A program made the position numbers and the translations under genes. The notes beneath the pieces are model-generated. The model was not told the origin of the DNA, did no database searches, and saw only the letters and a list, made by a program, of their open reading frames with translations. This document shows, one piece after another, positions 1,848-18,146 of a stretch of DNA of 64,000 nucleotides. This DNA comes from an uncultured Chlorobiaceae bacterium (lineage in GTDB: Bacteria > Bacteroidota > Chlorobiia > Chlorobiales > Chlorobiaceae). Each line of letters begins with the position of its first letter. Within the stretch, counting starts at the first letter, position 1. The stretch spans positions 124,001-188,000 of the forward strand of contig CAITSZ010000005.1 of the NCBI GenBank assembly GCA_903895195.1, read 5' to 3'.

Positions 1848-3425
1848 TCAGTGCTTGAAATGCCGCATGCCGGAAAAAACCATAGCAAGATTGTTGGCAT
1901 CTGCTGCCTCAATAATTTCATTATCGCGGATAGAACCGCCCGGCTGTATGACCGCTGTGACACCAGCCTCAGCTGCGGCAAGCAGACCATCGGCAAAGGG
2001 GAAGAATGCGTCTGACGCTACAACAGAGCCATGGAGGTCGAGCCCGACTTCGGAGGCTTTCCAGCGTGCGATTTTTGAAGAGTCGACACGCGACATCTGA
2101 CCGGCTCCAACACCGAATGTCTGACGGTTTTTGACATAGAGAATGGTGTTCGACTTGATATGTTTGCAGATCTTCCAGGCAAACATCAGGTTGTCCAATT
2201 CTTCAGCAGTAGGCTGCCGTTTGGTGACAACCGTCAAATCCTCTTTAGCGACTATTTTGCTGTCGCGCTCCTGAACGAGCATCCCGAACGGTGTTGACTT
2301 GAACTCCCAGCCGCCTTTCGGCAGGGGGTGGTTCTGCTGCACAAGACGGCGGTCCTTTTTCTTTATGAGCAGATCCAGCACTCCATCTTCAAATGCTGGA
2401 GCAATGAGGATTTCGGTAAAAATTTCGTTGACAGCTTTAGCTGTCTCCATATCAAGAGGACGGTTAAAGACGATGATTCCACCGAAAGGAGCCTGGGTAT
2501 CAGTTGAAAATGCCCTGCGGTATGCTTCGAGCAGTGTTGGAGCCTGTGCAACGCCGCACGGGTTGGTATGTTTGATAATAACCACTGTCGGGTCTTCACC
2601 GCGGAACTCTTCAATCAATGTTGTTGCTGCGGCTATATCGAGCATGTTGTTATAGGAGAGCTCCTTGCCATGCAGCTTTTCGAAAAAGTCAGCAAAAGAA
2701 CGTGTTCCATTGGAATCGGTAAGGCGATATAGGCCCGCGCTCTGGTGGGGGTTCTCTCCGTAGCGCATATCAAGTTCTTTTTCAAGCTTGACCGTCATGG
2801 CAGCTGAAGCTTCCTGCTGTTTACCGGCGATAGCACCAGTGAGGTACGATGCAATTGCCCGATCGTAACGGGATGTGAGTTCAAAAACCTTTAAGGCAAG
2901 CTGAAGGCGAGTCGTCCTTTTTGTTGCACCGTTCTGCTCCTTCATTTCCTGAAGAACACGCGCATAGTCGGCGCTATCGGTAACTACCGTGACAGATTCG
3001 TTGTTCTTGGCTGCGCTGCGGAGCATTGATGGGCCGCCAATATCAATATTTTCTATAGCATCTTCGAAGGTTACACCTGGCTTGGCCACTGTTGCTTCGA
3101 AAGGGTAAAGATTAACCACGACGAGGTCTATAAAGTCGATTCCGTTAGCCTTAGCCTGGCTGATATGGTCGGCATTCTCCCGTACTGCAAGTAGAGCACC
3201 ATGTATTTTTGGATGCAGGGTTTTTACCCGTCCATTCATGATTTCCGGAAAGCCGGTAATGGTGGATATGGAAGCTGCGCTGATGCCTGAATCCTGCAGT
3301 GATTTCAATGTTCCGCCGGTTGAGAAAATCTCAACTCCCATGGCACTCAACTCCCGGCAGAAATCAACAATACCGGTTTTATCAGAAACAGAAACCAACG
3401 CCCGCTTGATGACAGGATCAGACAT
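1848..3425 (-). CDS. purH: Bifunctional AICAR formyltransferase / IMP cyclohydrolase
   Basis: This 525-residue enzyme catalyses the last two steps of de novo purine synthesis: formylation of AICAR with 10-formyl-tetrahydrofolate, then ring closure to IMP. The N-terminal cyclohydrolase (MGS-like) domain begins with [11 protein letters not shown] and contains [12 protein letters not shown]; the C-terminal transformylase carries RYGENPHQ near residue 220, the catalytic KHTNPCGVA near 283, and [12 protein letters not shown]. Length is that of the family. It is monocistronic, and its 5' side contains a heptamer repeat (3526-3553) and the decayed toxin-antitoxin locus. purN lies 1.4 kb away on the other strand and purF at 9.9 kb. 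Confidence 0.97.
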
Positions 3426-3525
3426 TTGCAGAAAATTTATTTAATGATCTTTTCATTGAGATTCACAGAGGCGGAATCTAAGAAAAAATCCCTAATTATC
3501 TGATCTCTTAAGTGGGGAGGAACAA

Positions 3526-3553
3526 GTGCTGAGACGTGAGTGCTGGGTGCGGA
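3526..3553. repeat. Heptamer tandem repeat, about four copies
   Basis: Four consecutive 7-base units follow the pattern GTGCTGA, GACGTGA, GTGCTGG, GTGCGGA. The same heptamer theme recurs at 6090-6110 in another gap. It lies about 100 bases upstream of purH. Confidence 0.6.
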
Positions 3554-3634
3554 GCTATTCGGAAGGATCAAGATAGAATAACGCTCTGCCTTAGCTATTG
3601 ATACTAAGGCTTGAACAACTACTTTTTTGCTTTG

Positions 3635-3932
3635 TCACTTTAGCCGTTTTCGCCAATAGAAGGGACGTCTTTTCTGGTGAGCATACGCCAAAATTAAAAT
3701 CTTATCTTGGTGGACAAGATAGACCAGATTGTACTGGGAAGCGCAATAAAGACTTTCTCCGTAATCTTCTCCCTATTCTTGGTGAAGCCTCAGGATTCTT
3801 TAAAATCTGATCAAGAGCTCTTTCCACTTCAACAAGCAATTGTGAACCAAGCCCTGACTTCTGCCTTTCGTAGTACTGCGCTGCCTCTGTGACCTCTGCA
3901 TCAGCACTGGGATGGAAAGCAATCGGCTTCAT
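3635..3932 (-). pseudogene. ParE/RelE-family toxin, frameshifted
   Basis: The first 65 or so residues (MKPIAFHPSADAEV, AAQYYERQ, EVERALDQI, RRKSLLRFP) are a clear plasmid-stabilisation ParE/RelE-type toxin. One extra base near 3734 throws the frame out; the next frame continues exactly where expected with YNLVYLVHQDKILILAYAH and RRPFYWR and stops at 3635-3637. The open frame as it stands ends early, at 3702. The restored protein would be about 98 residues, the usual size. Its ATG overlaps the TGA of the upstream antitoxin remnant by four bases, as in intact operons of this family. Loss of function is inferred; sequencing error is the main alternative, but the partner gene is independently broken. 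Confidence 0.85.
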
Positions 3933-4153
3933 GAAATAGCCGCACGGGCTCGACGGAGGACTTCTTTGTCTGAAATCTCTGTTGCAATCCCCTGCTCCAA
4001 CTCATCCAGGCGGCGCTCTGCCTACTCAGTCCACAATACCTCAACTTCAGCTTCAGATAAATTGTCGAGACTCTCAACTATCCACTTTGCCAGCGTAGCA
4101 CGTTCCTTTAATTCGAGCTTCTGAATTTCGACTTCAATCTCTTTGATACCCAT
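3929..4153 (-). pseudogene. Addiction-module antitoxin (CHP02574/Unstab_antitox type) with internal stop
   Basis: The protein starts MGIKEIEVEIQKL and runs through RATLAKWIVESLDNLSEAEVE to LWTE, a good match to the antitoxin family paired with ParE-like toxins. A TAG at 4022-4024 interrupts it; the same frame then continues AERRLDELEQG and VLRRARAAIS to a TGA at 3929-3931 that overlaps the toxin start as ATGA. Restored length is 74 residues, normal for the family. The ATG at 4153 is preferred; an upstream in-frame start at 4234 would add unrelated residues. With the frameshifted toxin this is a module dead in both genes. Confidence 0.82.
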
Positions 4154-4286
4154 ATCCTTGCGATTTAAATTTATGAGCAACAGAGTATACTTACGGTAAA
4201 GGTACGGATAATTCCACTGAAATGAGTAGAGCAAGGAGTGCGACTCTCTTCACTTATATCAAATAATGAGATTGATGTCAGCTCCA

Positions 4287-4439
4287 TCATATAGTGCTTG
4301 CTGGTAAGGTCTTGCCTTCAGTTGCTTCTGCGTGCCCAACTTTCGGGTATCGCTGTGCAAGGTCTGCCTGCAAGGTGGCAGCTGAAAAACCACCAATTCT
4401 GTCACCTGCCAGCGACCCGTCAAGAATCAATGTTTTCAT
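4287..4439 (-). pseudogene. Truncated flavodoxin-like NADPH:FMN reductase fragment
   Basis: A 50-residue frame begins MKTLILDGSLAGDRIGG, which resembles the first beta strand and phosphate loop of flavodoxin-fold quinone or FMN reductases (compare the usual ILxGSPR). It stops after 50 residues where family members have 170 or more. A strong ribosome binding site, AAGGGAGGG, lies six to eight bases before the ATG, so the start was once real. No continuation was found in the other frames. The family call rests on one motif and is tentative. Confidence 0.35.
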
Positions 4440-4471
4440 TATTCCCTCCCTTATAAATTGTTTGCCTCCTT

Positions 4472-4749
4472 TCATATGCAATTTTCCATGGCGTTTGGCA
4501 ATTCAGTATATGTGACTGCTCCGGTACAAAGCCCTTCCAGTGAGTTCAATGTGATTGAGTGCTGACTGCGTGTTCTTGCATTCAAAACCGTCGTCGGCAA
4601 AACGTAGAAACACCAATGATCAATGTCCATCGGGTCGATAGTCTCTTTACAAGTATGAGCAAGCAGAGCAAACACGTAAACATCAGCCTGCAATCACAGT
4701 TTAGCTCTTCTCTTACAACCTGCTTGAAAAGAATCATCCCTGATTGCAT
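4472..4749 (-). pseudogene. Frameshifted remnant of an unidentified protein
   Basis: A frame from the ATG at 4749 reads MQSGMILFKQVVREELNCD, and a second frame, shifted near 4693, reads QADVYVFALLAH, DHWCFYVLPTTVL and SQHSITLNSL to a stop at 4472. Joined, the two read like the C-terminal part of one protein; the YVFALL / WxFYVLP pattern reminds me of PD-(D/E)XK-type hypothetical proteins, but I cannot name it. It precedes the truncated flavodoxin-like fragment on the same strand, suggesting one decayed operon. Confidence 0.35.
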
Positions 4750-4813: not shown

Positions 4814-5416
4814 ATGAGTATCCACAAAACCCGCTTGGCAATCTTCTGCTCCGGTACTGGAAGTAATTTTCAGGCGATCTTTCATGCGCTGAAGAATAAA
4901 CAGCTCAATGCGGAAATCGTGCTTTGCCTTTCTAACCGTGCACAGTGCTTAGCAATGGATTTTGCCCGCCTGAATGGCATTGAGACAGTGCATCTGACGG
5001 AAAAACAGTTTGACTCTTTAGATGATTTTGCTGCGGCAATGCTCGAGTGCATCAGGAAGCAGAGTATCGATATTATTGTGCTGGCGGGATATATGCGTAA
5101 GGTGCCTGACGACGTCGTGGCTGCATTTAAAGACAGAATCATCAATATCCATCCGGCCCTGCTGCCAAAATTCGGTGGCGAGGGGATGTATGGCATTCAT
5201 GTTCATTCTGCCGTTCTCCGTGCAGGCGAAACGGAGAGCGGAGCGACAGTACATCTTGTTAACGAAGAGTACGACAAAGGGAAAATTCTGATGCAGCGCA
5301 AGGTAGCAGTACTGCCTGATGATACACCGGAGATACTTGCAGCAAGAGTGCTTGAGTGCGAGCATACGCTATTCCCTGATGCGCTGGAAAAATTTCTTGC
5401 CGGTCATCAGTCATGA
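4814..5416 (+). CDS. purN: Phosphoribosylglycinamide formyltransferase
   Basis: A 200-residue GAR transformylase, third step of purine synthesis, using 10-formyl-tetrahydrofolate. It has the N-terminal FCSGTGSNFQ loop that binds the ribosyl phosphate, the catalytic pair N111 and H113 in INIHPALLPKFGG, and the catalytic Asp at D154 in VNEEYDKGKIL. Length fits the family. Its TGA overlaps the queE start as ATGA, so the two are translationally coupled. Confidence 0.96.
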   Translation: MSIHKTRLAIFCSGTGSNFQAIFHALKNKQLNAEIVLCLSNRAQCLAMDFARLNGIETVHLTEKQFDSLDDFAAAMLECIRKQSIDIIVLAGYMRKVPDDVVAAFKDRIINIHPALLPKFGGEGMYGIHVHSAVLRAGETESGATVHLVNEEYDKGKILMQRKVAVLPDDTPEILAARVLECEHTLFPDALEKFLAGHQS

Positions 5417-15736: not shown

Positions 15737-17158
15737 TTATTGGCGTCCATAGCGATCTTCAAGACGAATAATATCGTCCTCACCCAGATAACTGCCCGAC
15801 TGCACCTCAATCAATTCGAGCGGAGTTTCTCCGGTATTTTCAAGACGATGAAGAGCTCCTACAGGGATATAGGCTGACTGATCCTCATACAGGGTGATTT
15901 CCCTCTCTTCAATTCTCACAAGAGCGGTTCCTTTTACTACAACCCAGTGTTCGGCACGGTGCTGATGTTTTTGCAAGGAGAGGGCAGCTCCTGGCTTTAC
16001 GGTAATGCGCTTGACCTTGAAACGTTCTGAAAAATCAACCGTCTCATATGAACCCCATGGTCTGTAGACCCGGCGATGAATTTCCGCTTCATCACGTTCT
16101 TTTCTTTTCAGCTCTTCGACAAGCATCTTGACATCCTGAACGGAAGAGCGAGAAGCAACAAGCACTGCGTCGGCCGTTTCAACGACAATAAGACTATCAA
16201 GGCCAACAGCCGTAACCAGACGACTGGTCGCATGGATGTAGCAGTTCCTGACATCCTGAACCAGCACGTCACCCTTTTTTACATTACCCGCTTCATCACG
16301 CACATGAACATCCCACAGGGCTGACCATGCACCTATATCATTCCATCCTGCATCAAGAGGAACAAGAGCGGCTTTTGCAGTTTTTTCCATCACGGCATAG
16401 TCAATAGAGTCAGAGGGTGATGCCGAAAAAGCTTCAACATCAAGTCGTAAAAAATCAAGATCTTTATGCGCGGTCTCCAGGGAGTGGCGGCACGCTGCAA
16501 CGATTGCAGGAGCATGTGCTTCAAGCTCCTGAAGATAGGCTTCTGCCTTGAAAAGAAAGATGCCGCTGTTCCAGAAATAGTCTCCAGAGGCAAGATAGAG
16601 CTCCGCCGTTACCTTGTCGGGCTTCTCAACAAATTCAAGTACGGGCCATGCCACATTGTTATCCCGGCTGGTAACTGAAGCCCTTATATAGCCGTATCCG
16701 GTTTCGGGAGAGGCCGGGACAATTCCGAATGTAACCAGGTCACCCTTTTCAGCTGCAGACTTTCCGGCATCAACGGCAGTAGCGAAGGCTGCCGGATCGA
16801 GAATCACATGATCGGCCGGTAGTATCAGCATAAGGGCACCAGGATACCGTTCAGCAATGAGCATTGCCGCAACCGCTGCAGCTGGCGCGGTATTGCGTCC
16901 TAAAGGCTCAAGAATAATCTCTCCGATATCGGTATTGATTTCGTGCAGCTGCTCTGCAACCAGAAACCGGTGGCTCTCATTGCAGACACAATAGACCGGC
17001 CCTGTATCTTTGGTTGAGATCAGGCGAAGCACGGTATCCTGCAGCATGGTCTTTTCGCCGATGAGCGACAGCAGCTGTTTGGGGTATAATGCACGGGATA
17101 GAGGCCAAAGCCGGGTTCCCGAACCGCCACTGAGAATCACTGGAATAATCATGGACAA
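15737..17158 (-). CDS. manC: Mannose-1-phosphate guanylyltransferase / mannose-6-phosphate isomerase
   Basis: A 473-residue enzyme that makes GDP-mannose from mannose-1-phosphate and GTP. The N-terminal nucleotidyltransferase has GGSGTRLWPLSRALYPKQ; FVEKPDKVTAELYL and FWNSGIFLF follow. The C-terminal cupin has RPWGSYETVD, then QKHQHRAEHWVVVKG, with histidine ligands of the type II mannose-6-phosphate isomerase. Length fits the bifunctional family. It is the last gene of the rfbACDB-galE-manC run, ten bases after galE. Confidence 0.94.
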   Translation of the reverse strand: MSMIIPVILSGGSGTRLWPLSRALYPKQLLSLIGEKTMLQDTVLRLISTKDTGPVYCVCNESHRFLVAEQLHEINTDIGEIILEPLGRNTAPAAAVAAMLIAERYPGALMLILPADHVILDPAAFATAVDAGKSAAEKGDLVTFGIVPASPETGYGYIRASVTSRDNNVAWPVLEFVEKPDKVTAELYLASGDYFWNSGIFLFKAEAYLQELEAHAPAIVAACRHSLETAHKDLDFLRLDVEAFSASPSDSIDYAVMEKTAKAALVPLDAGWNDIGAWSALWDVHVRDEAGNVKKGDVLVQDVRNCYIHATSRLVTAVGLDSLIVVETADAVLVASRSSVQDVKMLVEELKRKERDEAEIHRRVYRPWGSYETVDFSERFKVKRITVKPGAALSLQKHQHRAEHWVVVKGTALVRIEEREITLYEDQSAYIPVGALHRLENTGETPLELIEVQSGSYLGEDDIIRLEDRYGRQ

Positions 17159-17168
17159 AAAGGGTTTG

Positions 17169-18146
17169 TTAAATGGTTACAAATTTTTCGTACATCTTCC
17201 AGGTCGAAGAGATGAGGGTATCTACATCGCTGTATTTCGGCACCCATCCAAGCAGCTCCCTTGCCTTTGCCGATGAGGCAACCAGTTCGGAAGGATCTCC
17301 TGCACGCCTTCCTGAAATATCAGCAGGAACTTCCCTGCCGGTGATTGCCCGGGCTCGGTCAACCATTTCAAAAACACTGACACCTGTCTGACTTCCAAGA
17401 TTCACCGTCAGGCTTCTGTCATGCTGCAGAAGGTATTCAAAAGCAGTGACATGGGCTTCGGCAAGATCGCTGACATGAACATAGTCACGGATGCAGCTTC
17501 CATCACGTGTGGGATAATCATCGCCGAATATGGAGAGTTTCGGGCGAATTCCTGCGGCTGCTTCCATCACAATCGGGAGAAGATTCTCAGGATTCAGTTC
17601 AAGACCCTTGATGCGTCCTCTCACATCATAGCCCGCAGCGTTAAAATAGCGGATTGCGGCATACCGCATCCCTTTGAGACGATCATACCAGTCGAGTATG
17701 CGTTCTATTTCAAGCTTGGTAAAGCCGTAAAAGTTTTCGGGCTCTTTCGGGTGATTCTCATCAATCGGAAGGTATTGAGGACTGCCATACACTGCAGCTG
17801 AAGAGGAAAAGATAAGACGTGATATTCCAGCCGCAGTTGCCTGGTTGAGAATATTAATGGTGCCGGAAATATTGGATTCAGCATAGAGTTCCGGTTTAAG
17901 CATGGACTGACCCGCAGCTTTAAGGGCGGCAAGGTGAACACAGCCATCAAAGCCCTCTCTCATCGCTTCTCTCAGCTGTTCGGGACGCATGATATCGCCA
18001 TACACAAAAGCCGCATCATGAAAGAGATTTTCTCTCAAGCCGGTTTGAAAATTGTCAAACACTGTCACCGCATAGCCTCGATCAAGAAAAGCTCTTGCAA
18101 CATGACTGCCTATATAGCCTGCTCCACCAATCACAAGAATCCGCAT
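17169..18146 (-). CDS. galE: UDP-glucose 4-epimerase
   Basis: A 325-residue extended SDR enzyme interconverting UDP-glucose and UDP-galactose. The NAD-binding GGAGYIGSHVARAF is at the N-terminus; FSSSAAVYG supplies the catalytic Ser and YGFTKLEIE the Tyr-xxx-Lys pair. RYFNAAGYD, CIRDYVHVSDLA and VNLGSQTG are GalE signatures. It lies between rfbB (44 bases upstream) and manC, consistent with supply of galactose for envelope polysaccharide. Specificity for UDP-GlcNAc cannot be excluded from sequence. Confidence 0.92.
   Translation of the reverse strand: MRILVIGGAGYIGSHVARAFLDRGYAVTVFDNFQTGLRENLFHDAAFVYGDIMRPEQLREAMREGFDGCVHLAALKAAGQSMLKPELYAESNISGTINILNQATAAGISRLIFSSSAAVYGSPQYLPIDENHPKEPENFYGFTKLEIERILDWYDRLKGMRYAAIRYFNAAGYDVRGRIKGLELNPENLLPIVMEAAAGIRPKLSIFGDDYPTRDGSCIRDYVHVSDLAEAHVTAFEYLLQHDRSLTVNLGSQTGVSVFEMVDRARAITGREVPADISGRRAGDPSELVASSAKARELLGWVPKYSDVDTLISSTWKMYEKFVTI

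Follow-up and report, generated by a model that had tools for sequence, protein, structure and literature searches.

The purN-purH interval of an uncultured Chlorobiaceae bacterium very probably contains a type II toxin-antitoxin operon, with a PF09720 gene upstream and a PF05016 gene downstream, that has recently turned into a pair of pseudogenes. This is ordinary gene decay, which is a known phenomenon, rather than a novel type of system. The locus lies in the analyzed stretch of 64,000 nucleotides (the window) on contig C5; the draft genome measures 2.49 Mb and consists of 49 contigs. Both genes of the operon, the antitoxin pseudogene (3932-4153) and the toxin pseudogene (3635-3932), are encoded on the minus strand between two genes that we take, from their translations, to be purN (4814-5416, plus strand) and purH (1848-3425, minus strand). 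Where relatives that match here carry a name, it is Chlorobium or uncultured Chlorobiaceae.

Among the 86 genomes of the family that were searched for relatives, Chlorobium sp. L227-2013-22 (SZXX01000012; genome G033, locus L049) carries an intact pair at the same site, the kind of close-relative copy that the preliminary description had proposed looking for. This sister shares the purH-adjacent position, the gene order, the ATGA overlap and 91 % DNA identity with the window over positions 4345-3555 (791 bases). In contrast to the window, with its nonsense codon and frame break, the sister encodes a 74-aa antitoxin (L049 3391-3615) and a 98-aa toxin (L049 3612-3908), uninterrupted, in register and followed by purH. 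Since both proteins are intact and in register there, the two readings do not stem from frames that are open by chance, and since the pair is kept intact at the same site, the two breaks belong to the window lineage alone. Compared with these same-site orthologues, the pair carries disrupting lesions, which is what defines it as pseudogenes, and both broken sites are conserved positions in the relatives. The intact pair would classify as a type II toxin-antitoxin system by its adjacency, its antitoxin-first order, the ATGA coupling, the lengths of 74 and 98 codons and the same order in relatives.

The minus-strand antitoxin frame starts with the ATG at 4153 and reads MGIKEIEVEIQKLELKERATLAKWIVESLDNLSEAEVEVLWTE, a stop, AERRLDELEQGIATEISDKEVLRRARAAIS and a second stop. 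Its sole internal stop is a TAG at codon 44 of the 74-codon frame (4022-4024, minus strand), and the frame closes with a TGA that shares the 4-base ATGA with the toxin start codon at 3932. The in-frame TAG and the otherwise open frame down to a TGA overlapping the toxin ATG had been noted before, and both were confirmed, with the TAG at 4024-4022 and the ATG at 3932. Relative to the sister, the stop is a substitution; it replaces a glutamate that is invariant in 11 of 11 aligned antitoxins and costs the protein its C-terminal 31 residues, including the family-invariant E44, A45, E46, R48, L49, E53, G55 and R70. Reading of TAG as a sense codon was ruled out, as four of the 34 flanking genes end in TAG, which is thus an ordinary stop here. 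The intact sister antitoxin scored 38.2 bits against the PF09720 profile (Unstab_antitox; curated cut-off 23.3) and is a member of this family. The window antitoxin with an X at the stop also passed (31.6 bits), and the separate pieces each fell below the cut-off (15.9 bits for the 43-residue stump alone). Against TIGR02574 (addiction module component, NCBIfam), the antitoxin reached 14.7 bits, which is under the curated cut-off of 31.9 and places it outside that family. A search for plasmid relatives of the antitoxin gave no match, and a sequence search of solved structures returned no homologue of toxin or antitoxin.

From its ATG at 3932, the zero frame of the toxin comprises 76 codons and closes with a TAA at 3704-3702. 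Residues 1-66 (3932-3735) match the sister toxin to 94 % in one frame, and residues 67-98 (3733-3638) match it to 94 % in the next frame, which ends with a TGA at 3637-3635. At the junction (3733-3735, minus strand) the window has one base more than the sister and the other relatives, so that an earlier claim of an extra base near 3734, followed by a frame that fits the family, holds. The break strips the toxin of its conserved C-terminal third, including the AHQKRRPFYWRKRLK region. For the intact sister toxin, the PF05016 profile (ParE_toxin) gave 28.4 bits over positions 1-88 of 89 at a cut-off of 23, and the toxin is accordingly a predicted member of the ParE/RelE superfamily. The 76-aa piece of the window scored 20 bits, below the cut-off, and was therefore filed as a PF05016 pseudogene.

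The second half of the toxin frame is as intact and as conserved as the first (94 % on both sides), as would be expected if the frame change were a programmed shift from which full-length toxin is still made. A slippery sequence at the break had been named as a finding that would speak against decay, and we found no X XXY YYZ heptamer around it, nor a +1-prone codon with a stop or a rare codon after it. Moreover, the zero frame runs ten codons past the break before stopping, the intact toxins of the relatives are read without any change of frame, and because of the antitoxin stop such a shift would leave full-length toxin without full antitoxin. A programmed frameshift is thus so improbable as to be nearly negligible, and inactivation of the toxin is the far better reading.

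A second alternative is that the operon is really intact and that at least one of the lesions arose in sequencing or assembly, or reflects a mixed population. The draft state of the genome, in 49 contigs, would allow for this, and the low dN/dS of the pair (0.14) is what a functional or just-inactivated pair would show. As a control, we compared the 34 flanking genes of the window (4.8-43.5 kb) with the sister and found no internal stop or frameshift. With purH included, about 36.7 kb of coding DNA was compared, of which the toxin-antitoxin pair makes up 1.4 %. The chance of two lesions landing in the pair is about 2 in 10,000, a rough figure for a region that was picked after the fact. The error reading would also need two different error types within 519 bp. 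Homopolymer error was ruled out because runs do not exceed 2 bases around the antitoxin lesion and 3 around the toxin lesion. Furthermore, the adjacent gene has a clear real deletion (see below). Given the unbroken flanking genes, the absence of any run above 3 and this large deletion, sequencing error is improbable, and the clustering of the lesions among unbroken neighbours favours real decay. The view that two lesions make an error less likely, put forward in the preliminary description, is therefore strengthened by the flanking genes and by a third lesion. Within the control, one gene at 15737-17227 (473/496 aa) had been flagged for two stops; it matches the sister over all 473 residues of the window ORF, and the two stops were attributed to a start-site difference. 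The remaining flags were artefacts of joining two sequence pieces or start-site differences.

This third lesion, which is of a different type and was overlooked in the preliminary description, is a deletion in a flavodoxin/FMN-reductase gene. In the sister, genes for a TetR regulator of 229 aa and a flavodoxin/FMN-reductase of 434 aa (PF03358, PF02525) precede the operon, whereas the window has lost both. By comparison with the sister, a 5' remnant with the leader and the first ~30 codons of the reductase is left at 4351-4467 and a 3' remnant at 4296-4345, both on the minus strand. Between them, 1,159 bases of sister sequence (approximately 1.16 kb) are absent, and five unrelated bases stand at the junction. 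The TetR gene that accompanies the reductase is gone from the window; the remnants and this loss concern 4296-4467 and 4468-4710 (minus strand). At least ten other Chlorobium genomes have the two genes side by side, in most cases adjacent to purN and/or purH, which makes their loss a peculiarity of the window lineage.

To estimate the age of the inactivation, we compared substitutions between window and sister. Over the pair, dS was 0.21 and dN 0.030, and the resulting dN/dS of 0.14 lies within the range of the 34 flanking genes (0.017-0.214, median 0.089). Polarised changes amounted to six nonsynonymous, seven synonymous and one stop on the window branch, and to five nonsynonymous and ten synonymous on the sister branch. 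Relaxed selection was not supported by these few changes, as the two branches do not differ clearly. The substitution pattern indicates that the inactivation is recent and has had no visible effect on substitutions yet.

In type II systems, the intact antitoxin neutralises the toxin and autoregulates the operon. In its intact state, the antitoxin of this locus would likewise bind and neutralise the toxin and probably repress the operon. The frame break presumably came first and rendered the toxin harmless, and with no toxin left to neutralise, the antitoxin would have been free to gain a stop. We examined this order in 21 related loci (or copies), which are not phylogenetically independent. 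An uninterrupted toxin is present in ten of them (one cut by a contig end), and the antitoxin is uninterrupted in all ten, counting locus L044, though its start is CTG. In the other 11, the toxin is broken (frame break in G000, stops in G052, L045 and L046, truncation in G078, fragment in G069) or missing (G083, G024 twice, G042, G028), and the antitoxin is damaged in six and undamaged in five. A damaged antitoxin beside an intact toxin was found in none of the 21 loci. Fisher's test gave p = 0.012 without phylogenetic correction and p = 0.093 when related loci were roughly collapsed. The relatives thus lend indirect support to the earlier suggestion of decay after toxin loss, and loss of the toxin first and of the antitoxin second appears as a trend in these sequences, not as proof.

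The L044 pair stems from a contig labelled Thermoleophilia (CAIOZS010000117.1), is 75-81 % identical to the Chlorobium pair and comes with other toxin-like matches. It represents either horizontal transfer or a misbinned contig.

Upstream of the antitoxin, the operon leader (4154-4230, minus strand) contains a block, GGAATTATCCGTACCTTTACCGTAAGTATACTCT, which in an alignment of upstream regions is kept in front of other Chlorobium copies and is unbroken in the window. We infer a putative promoter role for this block; a consensus promoter scan listed no minus-strand site at 4154-4230. As the leader is unbroken, transcription may continue. The products of the locus would now be limited to an antitoxin stump of 43 aa and a toxin stump of 76 aa whose end is scrambled, and neither is expected to work. 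Most likely, nothing functional is made from the broken pair. The conserved leader could also mean that the 43-aa N-terminal part of the antitoxin has been retained for a separate function, for example either as an operator-binding repressor or as a decoy for the toxins of other modules (anti-addiction). In agreement with this idea, the genome has four other ParE-type toxins, and the relatives G024, G042, G052 and G078 retain an intact antitoxin with the toxin missing or broken. However, the truncation removes the invariant residues listed above, no relative keeps a conserved N-terminal-only antitoxin of such length, the antitoxin ends differ each time among the other toxin-less loci, and we saw no sign of selection on the stump. 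A retained role of the stump is hence very improbable, and decay of both genes is preferred.

Comparable cases have been described. Decay of the chromosomal ccdO157 toxin-antitoxin module in E. coli is documented (Mine et al. 2009, cited in PMC2654758). The likeness lies in a chromosomal type II module that degenerates among close relatives; the differences are that ccdO157 belongs to the CcdA/CcdB families and was sampled in many strains of one species, whereas the pair in the window is PF09720/PF05016. Solo antitoxins of type II systems are also widely noted (PMC2701414), and the four relatives with a retained antitoxin resemble them; in the window, by contrast, the antitoxin is broken too. 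The locus is therefore a well-resolved further example, in Chlorobium, of a clean and recent toxin-antitoxin decay with an intact same-site sister. The rule that an antitoxin can be lost only after its toxin is borne out to some extent by the relatives. The case also calls for caution with automatic annotation, in which both stumps will be called as genes.

The PF09720-PF05016 module seems to recur in the purN-purH interval. At three loci (L051, L125 and L126 in G024, G042 and G028), an antitoxin, whole or truncated, adjoins purN without a recognisable toxin. In two other genomes, G080 (L018, ~2,850-3,050) and G037 (L019, ~2,835-3,050), nothing of the operon follows the FMN-reductase but the leader and a few initial codons of the antitoxin, which run into a short frame that presumably resembles a HicB-type antitoxin. 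There, the same decay seems to have gone further. More speculatively, and with a low likelihood, the interval in Chlorobium might be a recurrent landing and decay site with a graded series from intact pair over broken pair and solo antitoxin to the leader with a few codons of the antitoxin. In this series the toxin would be the first to go in every case, and the 43-aa stump in the window might have kept its ability to bind the operator. If true, this interval alone would allow the order in which modules decay to be measured.

The stretch between toxin and purH (3511-3554), which contains GTGAGTGCTGGGTGCGGAG, is a dispersed intergenic repeat, with five further copies in the genome (81-90 % identity) and an occurrence in the sister as well.
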